From NCBI GenBank assembly GCA_946404545.1, contig CAMJDZ010000001.1, forward strand, positions 124,001 through 188,000: a stretch of 64,000 bases of DNA, in the 5' to 3' direction. A model generated the notes under the pieces. It did not search any database, was not told the DNA's origin, and saw only the letters and a program-made list of their open reading frames with translations. Within the stretch, counting starts at the first letter, position 1. Every line of letters starts with the position of its first letter. Of the stretch, positions 4,385 through 54,889 are shown in pieces. The DNA comes from an uncultured Candidatus Saccharibacteria bacterium (GTDB taxonomy: Bacteria; Patescibacteriota; Saccharimonadia; Saccharimonadales; Saccharimonadaceae). Both the position numbers and the translations under genes were made by a program.

Positions 4385-4777
4385 ATGAAAACGAGAAAAG
4401 CTTTTACCGTACTAGAACTTATTTTAGCGATTGTCTTTGTTGGCATCTTCGTAGTACTATTCTTCTTCCAGGAGCAAAATATTGCCGCGATGAAGCGTGA
4501 CGAGAAGCGCAAGACCGCCATTAACGCGATGTATTATGCGCTCGAGGAAGGCTACTTCAAAGAAAACGAAGGCTATCCAGAAAACATCGAGAGCGCCGAC
4601 GTGTTGCCGTGGATTGATCCAAACCTCTTCACCGACCCGAATGGCTACAACCTCTGGGACAAGGGCAGCAACTATAGCTATGAGGCTAGCAACTGCGAAA
4701 ACGGCAAATGTAAGTCCTACACCCTCCGCTCCGCGATGGAAAAAGAGGACACCGTTATCAAGAACAGCCGCAATTAA
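4385..4777 (+). CDS. Type IV pilin/pseudopilin-like protein
   Basis: 130 residues. The N-terminus has a short basic leader and the prepilin motif KAFTVLELILAIVF with Glu at +5 of the presumed mature protein, then a hydrophobic helix to about residue 27. This marks a substrate of a prepilin peptidase and of a type IV pilus or type II secretion-like machine. The remainder is small and soluble, with a C-terminal pair of cysteines (NCENGKC) that could form a disulfide. It resembles minor or GspG-like pseudopilins in size. It is monocistronic between a leaderless promoter and a terminator, separate from the pilus operon at 44-52 kb and from the PilB-type ATPase at 8 kb. Confidence 0.85.
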   Translation: MKTRKAFTVLELILAIVFVGIFVVLFFFQEQNIAAMKRDEKRKTAINAMYYALEEGYFKENEGYPENIESADVLPWIDPNLFTDPNGYNLWDKGSNYSYEASNCENGKCKSYTLRSAMEKEDTVIKNSRN

Positions 4778-7960: not shown

Positions 7961-9571
7961 ATGGATGAAGGTGAGGTTCAAGCCAAGCGTAGGCAGAATG
8001 AAGAGGAAGCGACCGAACGACGGGCGAGTATCCTAGGCCTACCCTATCTTGATACACGCGAGTTTGAAAAAGTTTTACCTTTGACGATGAATTTGCTCGA
8101 CAAGGAGCAGATGCACAAGGATTTCATTTTGCCGCTTCAAGCAGGCGACGAGATTCATCCGTATCAGTTCATGGTGACGAGCCAGACGCCGCGAAGCGTG
8201 ATTGACCGCTTTCACAGTGAATATGAACGCCAGGGTTTGCGCTCGCAATTCTTCTTGATTTCCAACTCGGCCTATCAGGTTTTTATGCTGCGCTACGATC
8301 CGCCTCAGCAAGTCACTTACGACGATATCAAGATTGCCAACGAAGGTGATAGTGAGACAATTCAGCAGGTTTCCCGTACGCTCGATAGCGTTTCGACGGA
8401 CAAGGTTTTTGATTATCTTTTGAATCAGGCCGACATGCTCGGCTCGTCTGATATCCACATCGAGAATATGCGCGACGTAATTCGCATCCGTATGCGCGTC
8501 GATGGCATTCTTCATAATGTCGCCGAGATTAGCAAAGACAAGTATCGCATCTTTATGGGCGAGCTCAGTTCCCGTGCAGGTGTTTCGACCGCCAGCAACC
8601 GCCCGCAGTCTGGCCACATGCAGATGGACATTCATCGCGATGGCGCATCGCACGTTCTCAACATTCGCGTCGAAATGGTGCCGACGATGTATGGCCAAGA
8701 TGCCGTGCTACGTCTCTTCAACTTCGATGAAAGTCTTTTGAATCTCGATTTGCTCGGCATTACTCAGGAAGAACGCGATACGATCGAAGAGGTGATTTCG
8801 CATCCTCGAGGCCTTCTCTTGATGGTCGGCCCGACTGGTTCCGGTAAATCTACGACGCTCTATTCGATTTTGAATGCGCTCAACACGACTGAACGCAAGA
8901 TTATTACCCTTGAGGATCCGATTGAGTACGGCATTCCAGGGATTTCACAGATTCCGATTGATACGACGAACGGCGGTAGTTTCGCCGAAGGTCTGCGCTC
9001 CGTGCTTCGCCTTGACCCAGACGTCGTGATGGTTGGCGAGATTCGTGATGGCGATACGGCACGCACGGCAATCCAGGCGTCGATTACTGGTCACTTGGTT
9101 TTGTCTTCCTTCCATGCAAATACGACTTCGGCTGCATTCTCACGTATGATTGATTTGATTGGCGTGAACCCGATTTTCTCGAGCTCGATTCGCCTTTTGA
9201 TTGCACAGCGCTTGGTACGCAAGCTTGACGAAAACAAAGAGGCTTACCAGCCAGACGAAAGCGTTGCGCGCTATATTCGCAAAGTACTCGAAGGCGTTGA
9301 GACTGAATACAATCTCAACAATATTACCCTCTGGCGCGAAAAACCGAGCGAGGAAAATCCGTTCGGCTTCAAGGGCCGTACCGCAATCATGGAGCAGCTC
9401 AGTGTGACTGAGCCAATTCAGCGCTACATCCGTGGCGATATTGCTGATATTAATACGAATGACATCGAAAAGACGGCGCGAGCAGAAGGTATGCTCACGC
9501 TTGAACAAAAAGGCGTCCTAGCCGCACTACGTGGCGATACCACGATTGACGAAGTCGGACGCGTAATCTAA
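7961..9571 (+). CDS. pilB: Type IV pilus assembly/type II secretion ATPase (PilB/GspE family)
   Basis: Cytoplasmic hexameric ATPase powering pilin polymerisation. 536 residues: an N-terminal N1/N2-like region, then the secretion ATPase core with GPTGSGKST (Walker A, from residue 290), the Asp box IITLEDPIEY, Walker B LRLDPDVVMVGEIRD and the His box GHLVLSSFHAN. PilB/GspE proteins usually have a four-cysteine zinc module after the core; here that segment (LDENKEAYQPDE to ENPFGFKGR) has no cysteines, a variation also seen in some relatives. It is monocistronic and leaderless. Partner genes (pilC, pilD, pilT, pilM) are not in the window; candidate substrates are at 4385 and 44216-48439. Confidence 0.93.
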   Translation: MDEGEVQAKRRQNEEEATERRASILGLPYLDTREFEKVLPLTMNLLDKEQMHKDFILPLQAGDEIHPYQFMVTSQTPRSVIDRFHSEYERQGLRSQFFLISNSAYQVFMLRYDPPQQVTYDDIKIANEGDSETIQQVSRTLDSVSTDKVFDYLLNQADMLGSSDIHIENMRDVIRIRMRVDGILHNVAEISKDKYRIFMGELSSRAGVSTASNRPQSGHMQMDIHRDGASHVLNIRVEMVPTMYGQDAVLRLFNFDESLLNLDLLGITQEERDTIEEVISHPRGLLLMVGPTGSGKSTTLYSILNALNTTERKIITLEDPIEYGIPGISQIPIDTTNGGSFAEGLRSVLRLDPDVVMVGEIRDGDTARTAIQASITGHLVLSSFHANTTSAAFSRMIDLIGVNPIFSSSIRLLIAQRLVRKLDENKEAYQPDESVARYIRKVLEGVETEYNLNNITLWREKPSEENPFGFKGRTAIMEQLSVTEPIQRYIRGDIADINTNDIEKTARAEGMLTLEQKGVLAALRGDTTIDEVGRVI

Positions 9572-44195: not shown

Positions 44196-44217
44196 AGAGC
44201 GAAAGGCGCTCTTTTTT
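44196..44217. terminator. Terminator of tRNA-Leu, also near the end of the pilus operon
   Basis: Stem AGAGCG / CGCTCT, loop AAAGG, followed by TTTTT. Confidence 0.75.
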
Positions 44218-45769
44218 AGTTGCTCTTTTCGCCGTTGCCTTTACCGTTGCCAGAAGCGGTGTTGCTCACGTCAGCACAAGATGTCGCAAACGACTCTTTT
44301 GTGCTGCTGCCAGTTTCATAAGTAAATGGATTATTCTGGACGTTTACGACGTCGTTTTTGCTACTATCCCATTTCGAAGAGCTGTAGCGGCAGTTATTCG
44401 TCACATAGAATGTCTTCGAGATACCTTCGTTATTGGTATCATCGGTCATTGCAAGCGCGTAATTCGAGAGTGGGAAGTAGGTATCGACGAGCTCAATGCG
44501 AGCCTCGACGCGACGGAAGAGATCATTGGCGCGACCAGTCGAATCGACGATTGGCTGAACGCCAGCGAACTTAATCGTAGAACAGTTAATCGACGTCTTG
44601 CCGTCTTTTTCAATTTCAGCGTCGGTAGCAAGCGAATTGTCTTGGCAAGTGTACATCTTTACTCTTACCTCAGTAGATGGGACGCTGTATGGCAAGTTCA
44701 AAAGCAAAAATGAAGTTGAACGGTTGCGACCAGCGCTAATGCCGCGATATGGCGATGGAATATTAATGCTTGCACGGCAGGAGTAGTTAGCCGGCTGAGC
44801 TGCTTCCAGCAAGTTCGAGCACTTGATATCGATTGGCGTATTGAAGCTCTTGTTTGCCGAATAAGCAAGCGCAGTCGACGAAACAATCGTTGCTGCTTCA
44901 TTGGCAGAAGATGGGCGAAGCATCAAAGTGCCGCGGTTCGTATTCGCGCCGTTGCGTGCATAAAACTCGTCGAGCGTAAATGTGTTATTAGTCTGCATAT
45001 ATGTAGCCTGGACTACTGGAGGAGCCATGCCGCTCTTCGAGTCGTTCGCGTTGATAAAATTATTCGCGTAGTGATCGTTGCCTTTTTCATAGATGACGTT
45101 ATTGCTCGTGAGTTTGCCAGTAAGCGAAGTGGAGTCAAACCATTTTTCGCCGAGGTGGCCATCGCCGCCAGCAACCTTACGATAATCTTCAAGGCTGAAC
45201 CATTCGAGTTCAATGCGATCGATGCTGTTCTGTTCAGAATCAGTTGAGGCACGGATTGGAATTAACTTTGTTGGGTTACTATTGTTTAATGTCGCAATGT
45301 AATCATTTGTGTGCGATGTAACTTTTACGCAAGTGTAGGCCTGATCGAAGGCTTCGGCACTGCCCTTCTTTGTATTAGTGCCGCCAGATTTCGAGTTATC
45401 GGTCTGAATAATCGTTTCTTCTTCGCCAATGTAGCCCAAAAGGTCGCGGACAATATCGCAGTTCTGCGCCGTTACCTCGGAAGCCTGCTGCGTCTCGAAA
45501 GCCTGCGTATATTTATAGCAGTCGTTCAAGAAGCCAGGATCATTGAGACAGTTTTGGTAACGCAACAAAGCAATTTTCGCGTCCTCGATGCCGGCGAGCG
45601 CGGAGTTATATGCCGACTGCGAGAGATTATAGTTGGTCGTGCGTAGTGCTTCGGCGAGCATAATACGAACGAAGCTGAGTGCGATGATGCCCAGAAGAGT
45701 TGTTGTAAAAATTACAATATAGATAGAGGCTGCACCGCGTTTTGTCCTAGACATTTTACCTTTCATCAT
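44216..45769 (-). CDS. PilX/GspK-like minor pseudopilin
   Basis: 517 residues. N-terminus RGAASIYIVIFTTTLLGIIALSF then a long amphipathic helix (LAEALRTTNYNLSQSAYNSALAGIEDAK) is typical of PilX-type proteins, which lack the strict GFTxxE motif. The extracellular part is large, Ser/Thr/Asn-rich, with several cysteines and a KGNGEKS end. Last gene of the appendage operon; its ATG overlaps the preceding stop by one base. Confidence 0.8.
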   Translation of the reverse strand: MMKGKMSRTKRGAASIYIVIFTTTLLGIIALSFVRIMLAEALRTTNYNLSQSAYNSALAGIEDAKIALLRYQNCLNDPGFLNDCYKYTQAFETQQASEVTAQNCDIVRDLLGYIGEEETIIQTDNSKSGGTNTKKGSAEAFDQAYTCVKVTSHTNDYIATLNNSNPTKLIPIRASTDSEQNSIDRIELEWFSLEDYRKVAGGDGHLGEKWFDSTSLTGKLTSNNVIYEKGNDHYANNFINANDSKSGMAPPVVQATYMQTNNTFTLDEFYARNGANTNRGTLMLRPSSANEAATIVSSTALAYSANKSFNTPIDIKCSNLLEAAQPANYSCRASINIPSPYRGISAGRNRSTSFLLLNLPYSVPSTEVRVKMYTCQDNSLATDAEIEKDGKTSINCSTIKFAGVQPIVDSTGRANDLFRRVEARIELVDTYFPLSNYALAMTDDTNNEGISKTFYVTNNCRYSSSKWDSSKNDVVNVQNNPFTYETGSSTKESFATSCADVSNTASGNGKGNGEKSN

Positions 45770-46656
45770 TATTCTCCATTCCTATTAGTTATTGTTGCTT
45801 CACCGGTTGCGCGAGCGGAAAAATTGAACTTGTTCACTGCGCAATAATCAAAGTTTTCAAGACTAAATTCACTATCTACTTCTCTGTTGTCGCCGGTGCA
45901 GAAGTCGCCGTTCGACTGGATATTGACACCGCCGCGAATAGTCGCCAAAATGAAGGATCCGGAAAGGAAGATTTGCTTCGTAGTTTCATTCTGAGTAGCC
46001 GGGATGATACGGAAATCATAAAGCGCCAAATCCATATCGTCATCGTTGATTAACTCTGTGATGTCGTCCATCGTAATTGATCGGCCCTCGCCGAGTGTCA
46101 TTGAGACTGGCGAATACTCAGTAGCCGAAGTTGGCGATGTTGTCTCATTGTGCGCACAGGCATAACGTTCCGTGTCCGGGAAACGTGCGAGTTTCGGAAT
46201 GTAAAATTCGTTGCCAGCGCCGGCAAGCTTAATTTTGAGCAGATGGCCATCATTGCTCGAACTCTCGTCGCGAGAGGCGGTAATAGTCGGCGCGTTATTC
46301 CAAACGTAGCTATATGAGCCAGTGCAGAAAATACCGCTATATTGCTCCGTATGGTTACCGTCTTCCACGCTGAGATAGTAGTTCGCGAGCGCCGCTTTTA
46401 GGTGCGCAGCATCGATGCCGCTATTGCCATATTCCGGATTAACCTTCAAATGAGTTGGCGAGCTCGTAATCGTACGCGTGAGATCGGAAATAATTTCGCG
46501 ACCGTTCGTGTTGACTGCGCGAAGAGCGAGACCTTTTTGATAAATACTCGTTACGCGCATAATCAATGCTGCGATTGCAACAAGCATCGTACCAAGGAAT
46601 GCCATGGCGAGCATCAACTCAATAATCGTGAAGCCCTTTTTCTGCTGTTCTTCCAT
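45769..46656 (-). CDS. PilW/GspJ-like pseudopilin
   Basis: 295 residues. Prepilin peptidase motif KKGFTIIELMLAMAFLGTMLVAI with Glu5 at the N-terminus, followed by the helical stalk and a beta-rich domain with three cysteines. Resembles minor pilins of the PilW/GspJ group in length and position. Both ends overlap neighbouring genes by one base. Confidence 0.85.
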   Translation of the reverse strand: MEEQQKKGFTIIELMLAMAFLGTMLVAIAALIMRVTSIYQKGLALRAVNTNGREIISDLTRTITSSPTHLKVNPEYGNSGIDAAHLKAALANYYLSVEDGNHTEQYSGIFCTGSYSYVWNNAPTITASRDESSSNDGHLLKIKLAGAGNEFYIPKLARFPDTERYACAHNETTSPTSATEYSPVSMTLGEGRSITMDDITELINDDDMDLALYDFRIIPATQNETTKQIFLSGSFILATIRGGVNIQSNGDFCTGDNREVDSEFSLENFDYCAVNKFNFSARATGEATITNRNGE

Positions 46657-47468
46657 TATTGCATCACCTCCGGATTATACAGACGAACGACGGTTGTAAG
46701 CGTAGAAGGGACATTCGTACCAGCGCTTTGCCAGCAAGTGCGAATATAGAAATCGAAATAGTCCGAGCGCTTTGGGTTTAACTCGTTATTCCCCGCTACG
46801 TCAATCCAAATACCTTCCGCAGACGAGACGAGGTTGTAGAGGTTATCAATAGTATCGCCCTGATTCAAATTCGAATTATCGGTCGTGGAAGCGGAATTAT
46901 TCTTTTTGTACAACACGCGCGGATATAGGCTCGCTTCATTGAAGCGGTTTCTAGCCGTAATCACGATTTCGTTATTCAACAAAGAGCTATAATCAACGCC
47001 GAGATATTGTGGGCTCTTTTTGTTAGCGTCTGGCAAGACAAGACGGGTATTCATTACAAATGATTTGTACTTTTCGAAATGACCATTACTGTTGGTCGAA
47101 TAAACGATATTGCAGGAATCCATATTATTGACATCAAAAGCCGTGAGGCCGCCGTCTTTGAGATCATCCGGGCCATCCTCGAGCAAAGATGGTTTAATAG
47201 CGTGACTTGTAATAGTCTCCCAGAGTTTCTTGAAACCGCTCTCACTGCTAGTCTTCTGCCTTTCCGCAACGTAGCTTTGATGGATGAAGCGAAGCGCCTC
47301 GGCCTGAGCGTCAATTTCATTGCGCGCCATTGCCGTTTCGAGCGTGCGCTGCGCAGTATTAATGCCGTCATTCATTAGGTTAATCGACAACATTGCGACG
47401 ACGGCAAAAACAGAAATCGAGAGCATTACTTCGATAAGCGTATCGCCGCGCATAGTCCTTAGTCGCAT
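46656..47468 (-). CDS. PilV/GspI-like pseudopilin
   Basis: 270 residues. N-terminal RGDTLIEVMLSISVFAVVAMLSI is a prepilin motif with Gly-Asp in place of Gly-Phe and Glu at +5; then a stalk helix and a globular part. The start overlaps the upstream gene by 10 bases. Order and size suggest the PilV position of a four-member minor-pilin set (H-I-J-K), which together usually prime the pilus tip. Confidence 0.85.
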   Translation of the reverse strand: MRLRTMRGDTLIEVMLSISVFAVVAMLSINLMNDGINTAQRTLETAMARNEIDAQAEALRFIHQSYVAERQKTSSESGFKKLWETITSHAIKPSLLEDGPDDLKDGGLTAFDVNNMDSCNIVYSTNSNGHFEKYKSFVMNTRLVLPDANKKSPQYLGVDYSSLLNNEIVITARNRFNEASLYPRVLYKKNNSASTTDNSNLNQGDTIDNLYNLVSSAEGIWIDVAGNNELNPKRSDYFDFYIRTCWQSAGTNVPSTLTTVVRLYNPEVMQ

Positions 47469-48439
47469 TGGTCCTCCTCACTGTCGGAATCCATATCGAC
47501 AAGCTCAATACCAGTCTGAGAGTGAGCATTCTTTAGAACACGAATCATGCGACTATGGTCTGAGTAGCTGGCGCTGCCGTTGCTGTTCACACAAATCTTG
47601 AGTTCGGTATTTTTGAAATTGTCGTCAGTCAAATACTTGTTTACGCCGACGTCATAGATTGCCGCCTTTAGCGCTTCGATATTGCTAGACACAATGCCGC
47701 CGGTGCCGATAATCGCATTGTAGTCAGCGGAGCCGTTGTAATAAATTAAGTCATCCTTAACGTAGGTCTGAATGCTGCCGGAACGTGGAGAGCGGAAAAT
47801 CAAAAGCGTCTTTTTGAGGTCAGTAGCCTCACCGTCAACTGGTTTTGGCGTTTTGAGAATGACATCCCACTTCAACTTGCGCGTAGTGGCGTTGCCAGCA
47901 GTTTGGACCGAGCATTTGTCGACCGAGTTCTGACTCTTTTCGCACATTACAGCAACGTTGTTGGCATTGAGCTTCTTGAGCAAAACAATGTCTGAATCGC
48001 TAGAATTTTCTTCAATGCGATTGTTGCGGATGGCGTCGACATAATCTTCGCCAATAATTGTCGTGGTTTGAATCGTGTCTCCATTAATCGCAATTACGGC
48101 ACCATACACAACACAGTCCGTGCGACCGCGACCACTATTCCAATTTTGCTTCGGATCGATTCCGTCCGTAATCTGGCTAGCCGTCAATGCACCGCACACG
48201 CCCTTGTTCCCCTGCGTGCCATCACCATTGCGTGAAGCAATCTGCGTATCAGAAACGAAAGAGTAGGCGTTTTTAATAGCATCAACTGTATCCTGCACAG
48301 CATCTTTATAGCGCTGATTTGCAATACTAGAACCGGTGCCAACCAAAATACCGACTAGCAGGAAACCGCTAATCGCCAAAAATAGCATCACCTCAATAAT
48401 AGTGAAGCCAGGACGTCGTTCCACCACATTATTGTCCAT
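47459..48439 (-). CDS. GspH/FimT-like pseudopilin
   Basis: 326 residues from the chosen start. Prepilin motif RPGFTIIEVMLFLAISGFLLVGIL at 9-32, then a large domain with four or five cysteines and an acidic end (DSDSEEDQCD). The start MDNNVVE is set by TATAAT six bases upstream (leaderless); nine upstream codons are excluded. First of four overlapping pseudopilin genes. In type II/IV systems GspH-I-J-K form the tip complex. Confidence 0.85.
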   Translation of the reverse strand: MDNNVVERRPGFTIIEVMLFLAISGFLLVGILVGTGSSIANQRYKDAVQDTVDAIKNAYSFVSDTQIASRNGDGTQGNKGVCGALTASQITDGIDPKQNWNSGRGRTDCVVYGAVIAINGDTIQTTTIIGEDYVDAIRNNRIEENSSDSDIVLLKKLNANNVAVMCEKSQNSVDKCSVQTAGNATTRKLKWDVILKTPKPVDGEATDLKKTLLIFRSPRSGSIQTYVKDDLIYYNGSADYNAIIGTGGIVSSNIEALKAAIYDVGVNKYLTDDNFKNTELKICVNSNGSASYSDHSRMIRVLKNAHSQTGIELVDMDSDSEEDQCD

Positions 48440-48445
48440 ACTATT

Positions 48446-48451
48446 ATTATA
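48446..48451 (-). promoter_or_regulatory. -10 box, leaderless type, for the pseudopilin genes
   Basis: Minus strand TATAAT, preceded directly by TG, six bases before the ATG at 48439; lies between the 1260-residue gene and the pseudopilins, giving them their own start. Confidence 0.6.
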
Positions 48452-48472
48452 CATTAGCATAAGCAATTTTCC

Positions 48473-51400
48473 TTAATACCTCGGCGGCAATTCACGAGAA
48501 TAGGTCGTGACTGCCTGGTTATAACGCGACATTTGGCCGAAGCTCCAAAGATAATTACCGGTATTGAGGTTAAAGACCTCTGCGCGCACGATTGAGCCGG
48601 TGCCATTTGTTGCACCCGCAGTGCGGTTCAAAATCAAACGTTTCGTAATCACCGGCGAATCAAAGATAACGCTCTGATTACAAACATTGGCGTTCAAGTC
48701 ACTCATTCTCAATTCCCTAGTTGGGTCGCTCGACTTAAATGCGCAAGTGTTCACTTTGTCGGCGATAATAGTTGCATCAACATATTTTACAGAATCAGTA
48801 AGATAAACATTTTCTGCCAAGATAATTACACCAGTAACACCATTAAGCGTCGTCATTGCCTTCGCGACTTGTTTATTCAAATCGCCATCAATCACTACGT
48901 TTGTCGCGCGATAAATAACTGTATGGTTGCCATTATCGTCGGCAAATGTTGGCGTCTTCGAAAGATAGAGATTGTTTGTTTTGATACCTACCGGCTCGGA
49001 CGCGTTGTCGCGATAAACGGACGGATCAATGTTTGACGCATCAAGATAAATCGTATTGTTGTACTGTTTCTGCGGCACGCCACTGAGGTTTTTGCCAATC
49101 TCGGAATAACGATCTTTTGTGCGAGCTTCATACTGCGTTGCCGATATTTCGCCAATTTTCTTCATGTCTTCTGACTGCTTGCATTCCGCGTTCGCGAAAG
49201 TCTGAGTCATGAATGTACATTCGTTAGAATTAGTCTCGTCGGCAACAGTAGTATTGTTATTCGTTGGATTTGTGCGCGTAATGTTCAAGTTCTTCGTATT
49301 TGCGCCAGTGCCGTCGCGGCCATAAGCAAGCGCTGCGCCGGAGGCCATGAGGAAGTTTTTGTTTACGCGGCCATAAACGCCATACTCAGCCCAGGAGCCA
49401 AAGGTCAACCTATTGGCGGCGCCGTTCGCAACGATCTTTTTGCTATAAATTGAGGTGTTAATTTTTGTTGCACTGTATACATTCGAAGATTCAACGCTCA
49501 TAGTTGGGCGCTTCGCAATTGTGAGACAGGACGCAGTCGCGCGGCGCGTGCTGATGTTGGAGCCTTCTTGCAATGCGGCCGCATCATTATTCCCATCGTG
49601 GCTATCATACGGATAAACCGAAAGCTCAACGCAAACGCGATCGCCTACTACGTAATCATCGCTAATTTCTACCGTGACTGGAGCAAGCGTTTCATTAACA
49701 TTATTTTTACTAAAACCTTCTTGGTTAAAGCGGCGTGTTTCGGATGTCGAGTGAACGCTACCCTTCAGGTTCCCCGCGGAATCGGTGAAATAATAACTGT
49801 AACGCACGTCTGTGTTTTTGGTAATTGTGGCGTAAGTGTTTTTATTGGCATCGTTGCTGACGGTCTCATTTTTGCGCGTCATCACAGCAACACCGGGCTG
49901 CATCGTAATACTCTCACCAATGTAAGCGACGCGAAGAGTTTGGTTAGAGACATACGGTTTCAGTACGTAGTTATACGGGATAATAACGCTCGCCGTAGCC
50001 GTACGTGCAGTGTCGCCAACATTGGCGCCGTTGGTAACTTTTTGTTCATTCCAGTCTAGTCTTTGCGTAATTGTACTACCGGTATCGAGAATGCCGATGT
50101 TATATTCCTGCCTATTGCGCGCGCAGTCCAGTTTGCCAGCTATCTGATAATAGCCGCTTTCTGGAGTGCCACAGCGATAATTATTGCTTGCGCCGTCGCT
50201 CGGCGAAGCGAACGAACCATTCAAATGATTAACATCCTGCATAAAGCCGCTCGGGGTAGGACTGCTCAACCAAACACGCGGGTTATTGAATGTGCCGCCA
50301 ACAAGCGGAACGTCCGTGCGGAAAAGATATTTATTGTTATTATTTACGGTCGTCGATTTAGTGCTCCAGCCACTCGCAGTATATGAAACTGTAGCAGACA
50401 GTCCGTTTTCCTTGATCGGATAAAGCGAGCCGGCGCACATGTCATATTTGAAACGGATATTGTCAGTCGGACGAGCATAAATCGAAACTGGGCCGTTAGC
50501 CACCGTCTCAGTCTTGTTTAGATTTTTATTATTTACACTGAGCTGGCCGTAGTTTTGACCTTCTAGCAAGCCGTACTCGATGTTTGGTGCTACCGAGCAT
50601 TTTTGCTTCGGGCGCGAAATCGTAACACAGTATTCAGAACCGGATGCGGCCGTTAGGCCATCCGATGATGATTGACGAGCACGGTAACTCATAGCACTAC
50701 AGAACGTGCGCGTTTCGCCATATTTTAGCGTACCAGTTACTTTAGGGGTGAATACATTTTGTGAGCTATCTTCTGCCAAAGCATTAGTATTGCCGCTAGC
50801 CGTAGCCGATGTTGGTGTCCAGTCCGCAGCAGACGAACCATTCACGAGAGAGCTGGCATCTCTGCGTGAAGCGGAGTACTGTGTCGCGACCGTTTCGCCA
50901 GCAGAATCTTTTGAACGTTTAACGTTGCTCGTGAAGCTAATTTCGTAATAGCCGTCATCTGAATCCGATAGCGTAATTCGATGATTCGATGGAATTGAAA
51001 CATCGGTTTTGGCTGAGTTCTTTTTAACAGATGCCGTAACAGATCCGGAGAAGTACGCGTATGGACGAGAGATTTTAACGCACTGCTTAGAATACGTAGA
51101 GCCACTGGCGCCATTAACTGTCGAGTAAGCCGCCGATGTCGTCACACCAGAACACTTCGTTTGCGATTCGCCGGGGTTGAGCGAGACGGTTACCTTTTTA
51201 TAGTTAAATGCGCCGTCCCAACCAAAGACAGGTTTATATGTCCAGTCGCCAGACGATGGCGATATATCGATACTTCCACTCGAGCCGTTAGTTTCGCCAA
51301 GCCCATACCAGTTGGTTGTCGCGGTATGCGCGTCGCGGAGGGTGACTCTCGAGCGTAGGCGGTTATCAAACTCGATAACCGTGTTTCTTCTGTTCACCTT

Positions 51401-52255
51401 ATTCGTATCATAATAATCATCCGTACCCGCATCTCTTGCATAGCCGCTCATAATAGTGCGCTCAACCGAGCCGTCGCCGCCAACGTCAATACGTGCGCGC
51501 GTGTTGTTTTCAAAAACACTCGTCGATTCTTGCTTTTCGGCAAGGATCACGAAGTTCGACCAACCATAACTACCAGAACCATTATTGAAGCCGCGATAAA
51601 GAGATAGCTCAATCTCACCATGGTCAGAAAGCTCGGTGATGCCAACTTCACTAATTAGAGTTTCACCATTCACTTTTATTTTTGCGACACGCTCAGGGTA
51701 GGTAAAGTCATTCTCGCCACTCGTATTATTTGCGGATGCTCTCAGGAAATCTTTGCCACAATAGCCATTCGGATCGCAGCCGTACACGCTCGCCCAGCCG
51801 TCCGAATATTCGATACCAATATTACTATTACATTTACTATGGTCGTTCCTGGCACAAATCTTAACGTTCGTAGCATAAATGGCTGCGTGCGATGACTTAT
51901 TATTGACCGATCCGACAACGCCAAGGGTGGTTATGCCGGTCCTTCTGAGATACGCGTTCACATTAATTGTATAAGTGCTGCCAGACTGAGAGAAGCCGGC
52001 TTCGTCCGTAATCCACATTACACCGCGAGCACTACTCGAGTTGCCACAAGCCCACTCGACACCAGCGTCCGACATCGAGTTACCAGGAGAAACGTCGGTG
52101 ATTTGAGAATAAGTGCTGCCGCTGTTGACCGGAAATTTGCGATTAGCATTGTTCATACAAGTAGTTTTGTTTTTGGCGTAAGCGGCGCCCGGAACAAAGA
52201 ACAAAATGCCTAGTATTGTAAGCAAAGCAACTAATGAAGTAGTTTTCCGTTTCAT
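48473..52255 (-). CDS. Large secreted surface protein of the pseudopilin operon (candidate tip adhesin)
   Basis: 1260 residues. Signal peptide (KTTSLVALLTILGILFFVPGAAYA, about 4-27). The body is rich in Ser, Thr, Asn and Tyr. A repeated module ends three times with a similar cysteine motif: CVKISRP (about 395), CVTISRP (about 545) and CLTIAKRP (about 910), each preceded by another Cys in a GE.+.C context, so a disulfide-linked beta domain is likely. The last 290 residues hold regular beta-type repeats (VIDGDLNKQV, VIILAENVYL, TIIADKVNTC). No LPXTG, membrane helix or anchor at the C-terminus. I recognise no family. The pseudopilin neighbours suggest a PilY1-like role at a pilus tip, by inference. 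Confidence 0.8.
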   Translation of the reverse strand: MKRKTTSLVALLTILGILFFVPGAAYAKNKTTCMNNANRKFPVNSGSTYSQITDVSPGNSMSDAGVEWACGNSSSARGVMWITDEAGFSQSGSTYTINVNAYLRRTGITTLGVVGSVNNKSSHAAIYATNVKICARNDHSKCNSNIGIEYSDGWASVYGCDPNGYCGKDFLRASANNTSGENDFTYPERVAKIKVNGETLISEVGITELSDHGEIELSLYRGFNNGSGSYGWSNFVILAEKQESTSVFENNTRARIDVGGDGSVERTIMSGYARDAGTDDYYDTNKVNRRNTVIEFDNRLRSRVTLRDAHTATTNWYGLGETNGSSGSIDISPSSGDWTYKPVFGWDGAFNYKKVTVSLNPGESQTKCSGVTTSAAYSTVNGASGSTYSKQCVKISRPYAYFSGSVTASVKKNSAKTDVSIPSNHRITLSDSDDGYYEISFTSNVKRSKDSAGETVATQYSASRRDASSLVNGSSAADWTPTSATASGNTNALAEDSSQNVFTPKVTGTLKYGETRTFCSAMSYRARQSSSDGLTAASGSEYCVTISRPKQKCSVAPNIEYGLLEGQNYGQLSVNNKNLNKTETVANGPVSIYARPTDNIRFKYDMCAGSLYPIKENGLSATVSYTASGWSTKSTTVNNNNKYLFRTDVPLVGGTFNNPRVWLSSPTPSGFMQDVNHLNGSFASPSDGASNNYRCGTPESGYYQIAGKLDCARNRQEYNIGILDTGSTITQRLDWNEQKVTNGANVGDTARTATASVIIPYNYVLKPYVSNQTLRVAYIGESITMQPGVAVMTRKNETVSNDANKNTYATITKNTDVRYSYYFTDSAGNLKGSVHSTSETRRFNQEGFSKNNVNETLAPVTVEISDDYVVGDRVCVELSVYPYDSHDGNNDAAALQEGSNISTRRATASCLTIAKRPTMSVESSNVYSATKINTSIYSKKIVANGAANRLTFGSWAEYGVYGRVNKNFLMASGAALAYGRDGTGANTKNLNITRTNPTNNNTTVADETNSNECTFMTQTFANAECKQSEDMKKIGEISATQYEARTKDRYSEIGKNLSGVPQKQYNNTIYLDASNIDPSVYRDNASEPVGIKTNNLYLSKTPTFADDNGNHTVIYRATNVVIDGDLNKQVAKAMTTLNGVTGVIILAENVYLTDSVKYVDATIIADKVNTCAFKSSDPTRELRMSDLNANVCNQSVIFDSPVITKRLILNRTAGATNGTGSIVRAEVFNLNTGNYLWSFGQMSRYNQAVTTYSRELPPRY

Positions 52256-52258
52256 TAT

Positions 52259-52900
52259 TTAGCCCTCCCCCTCTTCGCTGCTGTTTTCTTTGGCGCGTTT
52301 CTCCATCACGCCGCGATATTCTTCCGACTTCTTTTGATTGCCCAGCATTCCTTCGATTTCTGAAATCCAGTAGGCGCTCTGAATTGTTTGGTTCAAGCGT
52401 TCGCTCCAATAGGCATCCTCGAGGGCCTTTTCGAGTAGTTTTTCGTCTTTCGTTGACGACAAATCTTCCGCACGGTATAAAAGAATCTGCGCCTTGTTTT
52501 CATCATATTTCGCATCGTCAATGAGAGCCTGCATCGCATCGTAATACTCATCAGTATTAATCGAGTATCTTTCTCTTATTGAGTCGATGCTCAAATAATC
52601 TGCGCCATAGTTTTGCGATATCTCGTCTCTTTTTTGCTCTTCGGCTTTTTTCTTCATATCTGAGCTAGCAATAAAAGCAACAATGACGGCGGCGACCGAC
52701 AAAATAACTAACAGGATGGAAATGATGATCCATTTTAGATTGCCGCCACTTGAGCGAGCAGCTTTTCCGTTCGAAGAAGAACCATCAACCTGTGGCCATT
52801 TGGCCATTTCTACATCAAAATTAACACCAGAATAGCCTGGATGATTGTCGGTAGGATTGATATTCCCACCCACCCCAGTATTAGCGCTCTCAACGCTCAT
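52259..52900 (-). CDS. Membrane protein with outer helical domain, first gene of the appendage operon
   Basis: 213 residues. A disordered N-terminal part (about 1-55), one membrane helix (about 56-78), then a helical Glu/Lys/Tyr-rich C-terminal domain (about 100-205) that looks TPR-like (YDENKAQILLYRAEDLSST.., AYWSERLNQTIQSAYWISEIE). No family recognised. Leaderless promoter; three bases before the 1260-residue gene, so likely its partner, for example as membrane anchor or secretion factor. Role inferred from context only. Confidence 0.65.
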   Translation of the reverse strand: MSVESANTGVGGNINPTDNHPGYSGVNFDVEMAKWPQVDGSSSNGKAARSSGGNLKWIIISILLVILSVAAVIVAFIASSDMKKKAEEQKRDEISQNYGADYLSIDSIRERYSINTDEYYDAMQALIDDAKYDENKAQILLYRAEDLSSTKDEKLLEKALEDAYWSERLNQTIQSAYWISEIEGMLGNQKKSEEYRGVMEKRAKENSSEEGEG

Positions 52901-54556: not shown

Positions 54557-54889
54557 TTACTTTTTTGGCGGCGTAATATTTGCCGGGCGTCCATATTCCG
54601 GAAGAATAATCTCGCAGCGTTCGCCGCGTTGATTGTACAGCGGAATTTGCAGGTCACGACTGAGCGTATTTACGACCGTTGCGCCAATGCGAAGGCCAGT
54701 AAAACTTCCTGGTCCGGCAAAAAATGTGATTGATTCCAAATCTTTCCAATCGCAATTATTCTCAACGAGTTTATCGTGGACGAATTTTAATAAATCGCGC
54801 GCAAGACTACGGCCGGAGTCCCATTCATATTCACGTTCATTAAGACGCAAAATCGTTTTCAGCGTCGATGTGTCTAAATACATTTTCAT
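54557..54889 (-). CDS. tsaB: TsaB-like protein, half length
   Basis: 110 residues: the N-terminal half of TsaB (usually about 220), with LDTSTL at 5-10 and GPGSFTGLRIG at 59-69. TsaB is the non-catalytic partner of TsaD in t6A37 tRNA modification. The second ASKHA subdomain is absent, and the frame closes with a normal stop and no sign of continuation in 54481-54556. Four-base overlap with tsaE. The retained half includes the region that contacts TsaD in known structures, so it may still function. Confidence 0.85.
   Translation of the reverse strand: MKMYLDTSTLKTILRLNEREYEWDSGRSLARDLLKFVHDKLVENNCDWKDLESITFFAGPGSFTGLRIGATVVNTLSRDLQIPLYNQRGERCEIILPEYGRPANITPPKK

Follow-up and report, generated by a model that had tools for sequence, protein, structure and literature searches.

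Host choice in episymbiotic Patescibacteria is still an open question, on which published work, in its accessible part, centres on pilins. The locus described here poses the question for another kind of protein: what is the role of a secreted protein of 1260 residues, here called the giant, that is encoded directly beside a set of putative minor pilins, and is it connected with the pilus at all?

A six-gene cluster encoding minor pilins and a giant secreted protein

The analysed stretch of DNA (the window, 64 kb) comes from an 801-kb Saccharibacteria gut MAG that is 94.6% complete. The nearest named relative of this genome is RGIG7560, which was recovered from the omasum of water buffalo; a good many of the other close relatives are MAGs from ruminant or horse guts. 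The six open reading frames described in the initial annotation are indeed present, all on the minus strand, in a cluster flanked by RNase Y and an RNase HI-like gene.

52259..52900, minus strand: TM213, ORF for a single-pass membrane protein (213 aa; TM segment at residues ~57-79; extracytoplasmic domain probably helical), the partner gene of the giant
48473..52255, minus strand: giant secreted protein (1260 aa), with a signal peptide, a variable head and a conserved core and tail
50621..52174, minus strand: variable head of the giant (residues ~28-545), predicted beta-sandwich modules with Cys motifs at 368-398 and 519-549
49556..50608, minus strand: residues ~550-900 of the giant, a block of raised synonymous divergence in the comparison with strain RGIG7560
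48473..48904, minus strand: most conserved tail of the giant (residues 1118-1260), with C-terminal ELPPRY
47459..48466, minus strand: ORF for an H-like minor pilin (335 aa; GFTIIEVMLF), in the same place as in T4P-1 operons
46656..47468, minus strand: I-like minor pilin (270 aa; GDTLIEVMLS), GspI match TIGR01707 at 1.8e-6, below cut-off
45769..46656, minus strand: J-like minor pilin (295 aa; GFTIIELMLA), with a prepilin motif and T4P-1 operon position
44216..45769, minus strand: K/PilX-like minor pilin (517 aa), without a canonical prepilin motif (RGAASIYIV) and homologous to the gene that closes T4P-1 operons

The genes are tightly packed, with gaps of 3 bases between TM213 and the giant and 6 bases between the giant and H, followed by overlaps of 10 (H-I), 1 (I-J) and 1 (J-K) bases, which agrees with the range of 1-10 bases initially reported for the pilin genes. 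The 1260 stop-free codons of the giant have a chance probability of 1.6e-28 at this base composition, and a relative in another MAG (L068) has kept all six genes.

The initial description of H-, I-, J- and K-like pseudopilins stands for the first three by their prepilin motifs, and for I also by its resemblance to GspI (TIGR01707, below the curated cut-off); K lacks the canonical motif and is placed by homology to type IV pilus 1 (T4P-1) operons. The individual matches are weak: Pfam N_methyl scores of H, I and J (20.1, 17.5 and 16.0 bits) all lie under the 21.2 cut-off, H and J have weak family matches in Pfam/NCBIfam, and K has no family match in these collections. Homologues of H-I-J-K, arranged in the order seen here, form the 3' end of a pilM-N-O-B-T-C-A-D operon (loci L166 and L167; K and I profiles). 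Judging from this homology, the four genes are the minor-pilin set of the Saccharibacteria T4P-1. K homologues occur in 243 of 295 genomes of the class (241 of the 286 good ones) and in 42 of 45 genomes of the window's genus.

PilC, PilT and PilB1 were not found in the 94.6%-complete assembly containing the window, where missing sequence is the likely reason; PilC is present in 39 of the 45 genomes of the genus. Elsewhere in the window, an orphan PilB-like ATPase of 536 aa is encoded at 7961-9571 (plus strand; T2SSE, 1.3e-88). A T2SSE match exists in all 45 genomes of the genus, mostly with one PilC per genome, and most of those listed have the ~540-aa type. A small pilin-like ORF (130 aa; KAFTVLELILAIVFVGI) at 4385-4777 (plus strand), distant from the other pilus genes, is possibly an orphan pilin.

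The giant is predicted to be a chain of beta-sandwich domains

As initially described, the giant has a signal peptide, of the Sec type, and three Cys motifs of the form C...C-[VL]-x-I-x-[RK] (residues 368-398, 519-549 and 875-916). A sequence scan revealed neither a strongly hydrophobic segment after the signal peptide nor an LPXTG motif. The view that it belongs to no recognised family was borne out, with no usable match for the whole protein, its core or its head in Pfam, NCBIfam and PDB sequence searches. AlphaFold models of the core (pLDDT 78.5, pTM 0.67) and the head (pLDDT 76.8, pTM 0.52) both display an all-beta chain with little helix. Foldseek matched these models to generic beta-sandwich proteins with low TM-scores among the top 50 PDB matches, and we claim no specific structural homologue. 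A beta-propeller fold is not predicted for core or head, and the same 50 matches include no propeller-only hit. Overall, the giant is predicted to consist of beta-sandwich domains in a row; its head is variable and its tail conserved.

In the family, VWA is matched by two of the 20 homologues scanned, which are mostly of the T4P-1 type, and TIGR01451, CARDB and DUF7507 each have an isolated weak match in one member. A homologue from GW2011_GWC2_44_17 (L116:9020-11320) has a marginal N-terminal VWA match (1.4e-4).

Nearly every complete giant has a TM gene just upstream. At least six of 45 TM partners match Pfam TPR models; TM213 of the window has no Pfam TPR match.

The giant family is widespread in Saccharimonadia and linked to T4P-1

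With a profile built on the last 721 residues of the giant (A2) and searched over genomes of the class Saccharimonadia, relatives were recovered in 259 of 295 genomes, in 254 of the 286 of good quality (~89%) and in 105 of 129 genera, and the most widely shared part is the tail (1118-1260) ending in ELPPRY. Outside the class, in a phylum-wide draw of genomes, matches to the giant profile are few and weak. A weak tail-like match (G227:C2:316135-316764) lies inside an open frame whose reported length, 25,343 aa, would be exceptional for a protein, and a TM plus giant-type pair (L127) sits on a contig labelled Lachnoclostridium sp. UBA933, which is probably mis-binned.

The position of the giant relative to the pilus genes falls into three layouts. 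In 38 genomes from 17 genera, the giant comes first on the same strand as K, with 10.2-12.4 kb between its end and the start of K; in 21 genomes of g1 (the genus of the window) and g2 it lies 2.5-3.3 kb before K; and in three genomes of g11 the distance is 2-22 bases. Two loci read through have the operon order TM-giant-pilM-N-O-B-T-C-A-D-H-I-J-K, and in distant genera the giant homologue (about 560-1280 aa) is downstream of the TM gene and upstream of pilM-N-O-B-T. Judging from its breadth, the 17-genus layout is probably ancestral. In g1 the T4P-1 operon is split in the two genomes read, with pilM-N-O-B1 adjoining ychF and pilT-C-A-D elsewhere, and here TM and giant can directly precede H-I-J-K.

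Among the genomes of this genus listed in both searches, 14 of 15 have both the giant and K, and the remaining one (G177) has neither; family-wide, the absences among genomes listed (six for the giant, eight for K, two common to both) are too thin to weigh. Because giant homologues open the T4P-1 operon in other genera, and because genomes with a giant nearly always have H-I-J-K as well, the initially proposed link between the giant and the pilus is well supported by these genomic comparisons. The co-occurrence with the pseudopilins in relatives, whose absence had been named beforehand as speaking against a connection, was found.

The more specific proposal, that the giant takes the position of PilY1, was not supported. 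The widespread layout puts the giant before pilM, not before the minor pilins. Five genomes of the same genus (G193, G094, G152, G171 and G197) have RNase Y directly followed by H, with giants present elsewhere in the genome, and a sixth (G222, L210) has a TM gene and no giant between RNase Y and H, possibly a cassette remnant. TM plus giant cassettes also occur alone and far from pilins, or in tandem (up to three copies); a second cassette in the window's own genome lies near glyS (C2:65980-69729, L036). With cassettes found elsewhere and H-I-J-K sites free of a giant, the pilin site is therefore one slot among several, and the free-standing cassettes and tandem copies fit poorly with a single obligatory tip subunit. 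In addition, the PilY1 domain and a predicted beta-propeller are absent, and the PilY1 position is only an analogy.

Heads are replaced in blocks between closely related strains

In the comparison with RGIG7560, identity is 93.9% for the giant and 97.6-98.9% for the pilins, in line with the initial prediction that the giant would diverge more than the pilins. The divergence is concentrated in residues ~550-900, where dS reaches 0.5-1.2, against 0.03-0.26 over most of the locus. Positive selection on the whole giant gene was rejected on the strength of a dN/dS of 0.14 and of the clustering of differences in the high-dS block; import of sequence, and not positive selection, seems to be the source of the divergence. 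Close to the pilus genes, a TsaB-like region (window 54557-54889) forms a second short divergent stretch, with 84-91% identity to RGIG7560 where its neighbours have 97-99%.

In the second cassette, compared with RGIG7560, the ectodomain (outer half) of the TM protein and residues 1-400 of the giant have ~52-66% nucleotide identity, and the flanks (glyS and the remainder of the giant) mostly 94-99%. The L074/L077 pair displays the same block replacement with the same boundaries, and reading frames are intact across both breakpoints; every close pair in these comparisons consists of metagenome assemblies. Paralogues follow a similar pattern: three giants in one genome (L096, L101 and L110) have tails 85-93% identical and heads 36-40%, the values for L101 and L110, which share a contig, being 93% and 37%. 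As read from these alignments, blocks comprising the head and the ectodomain of the TM protein are replaced between near-identical strains.

Partial correlation likewise pairs the head with the TM ectodomain, and the middle part with the tail. For head and ectodomain, the Pearson version is strong (0.36-0.52, reached by no permutation) and the rank version weak (0.084, reached by 18/500 permutations), and the coupling therefore rests on a few close pairs. Adjacency in the DNA alone, within one recombination tract, could explain it.

What the giant may do

The reading we favour, with about an even chance of being right, is that of a membrane-tethered, T4P-1-associated adhesin with an exchangeable head. 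After export by Sec, the giant would be held at the cell surface by the TM protein, a tether with a TPR-like outer domain in several relatives. The conserved core and tail of the giant would engage the minor-pilin or alignment complex of T4P-1, and its head would be the adhesive, host-facing part. It would then work like a pilus adhesin of the PilY1 or PilV type while standing outside both families. Natural transformation, reported in Saccharibacteria in the accessible part of PMC10633639, could supply replacement heads; the same part reports most T4P genes as required for epibiotic growth.

A second possibility, which we consider appreciable if on the doubtful side, is that TM and giant form one or more stand-alone membrane-tethered surface adhesins, the pilus neighbourhood reflecting co-regulation and not physical assembly. 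Free-standing cassettes, such as the one in the window's genome, are in line with it, as are the members of the genus whose pilin slot is empty and the anchor that the TM partner itself provides; the fixed position of the giant with respect to the T4P-1 operon in 17 genera, together with the two other pilin-adjacent layouts, speaks against it. The proximity to the alignment genes pilM-N-O, which the giant adjoins upstream in distant genera, could also point to a component of T4P-1 biogenesis or envelope passage, a monoderm counterpart of a part placed beside PilM-N-O, with adhesion being secondary. Near-universality, the conserved tail and the TPR-like partner would suit such a role, but a strongly variable head, multiple paralogues and strain-to-strain head replacement are unusual for an assembly part, and we regard this explanation as improbable.

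The mosaic heads might, finally, be a by-product of strain mixing in MAG assembly, the giant being just a fast-evolving surface protein, and the use of metagenome assemblies in every close pair gives this idea its ground. It is, nevertheless, very unlikely given the frames intact over both breakpoints, the identical boundaries in two pairs, and the conserved tails and divergent heads of the one-contig paralogues L101 and L110.

The favoured reading, a tethered T4P-1-associated adhesin, has partial counterparts in known systems. PilY1 is the T4P tip adhesin/primer of Pseudomonas and Myxococcus, and the giant resembles it in its large size, its secretion and its genetic linkage to minor pilins without being a pilin itself; it is encoded with them, but is missing from the H-I-J-K locus in the five genus members above. 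The VWA domain, also a part of P. aeruginosa PilY1, adds to the likeness through its occurrence in two of the 20 mostly T4P-1-type homologues. The giant differs in having a TM partner of its own, a variable head that is all-beta, cassettes in several copies and no predicted propeller; the C-terminal beta-propeller domain of PilY1 has no Pfam/NCBIfam match in the giant, the core family or the T4P-1-type homologues. PilV of IncI plasmid pili, which in related plasmids varies through a site-specific shufflon, is itself a minor pilin, whereas the giant is a separate Sec-secreted protein varying apparently by block replacement. The two are alike in that PilV is a pilus adhesin setting partner specificity (TP114, PMC9045228). 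Surface proteins with DUF11/CARDB-type Ig-like repeats share with the giant isolated weak matches and a predicted beta-sandwich chain, but not its conserved tail and T4P linkage.

Within Saccharibacteria, H-I-J-K probably correspond to minor pilins of the Nanosynbacter lyticus TM7x T4P-1 such as pilV1, pilW1 and pilX1 (PMC12206443, from its accessible part). According to the same part, pilV1 and pilW1 could not be deleted, the thin pilus (T4P-2) aids host binding, and the proposed adhesin is PilX2 of T4P-2, a minor pilin with an RCC1 propeller. That text names T4P-1 machinery and pilins and no giant non-pilin protein; neither there nor in the accessible part of PMC10633639 is the giant described, and our literature searches, of partial coverage, found no description of the family or of its head exchange.

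Implications for host recognition

What is added here is an unnamed T4P-1-linked protein family, present in ~89% of good Saccharimonadia genomes and varying as a receptor-binding protein would. Host recognition by the giant is plausible. A class-wide host-recognition system, in which a T4P-1-linked giant acts as an adhesin that docks by its conserved tail and carries a recognition head replaced by recombination along with the ectodomain of the membrane partner, is a tentative extension that we hold to be possible but rather unlikely as a whole. The exchanged head resembles the frequent behaviour of host-recognition proteins, which makes the giant a testable candidate for host recognition by these parasites of other bacteria. 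Under the class-wide reading, head type would predict the host species bound; and should the role in recognition hold, head sequences could be matched to host identity over a large number of genomes, with tests in strains that are amenable to genetics.
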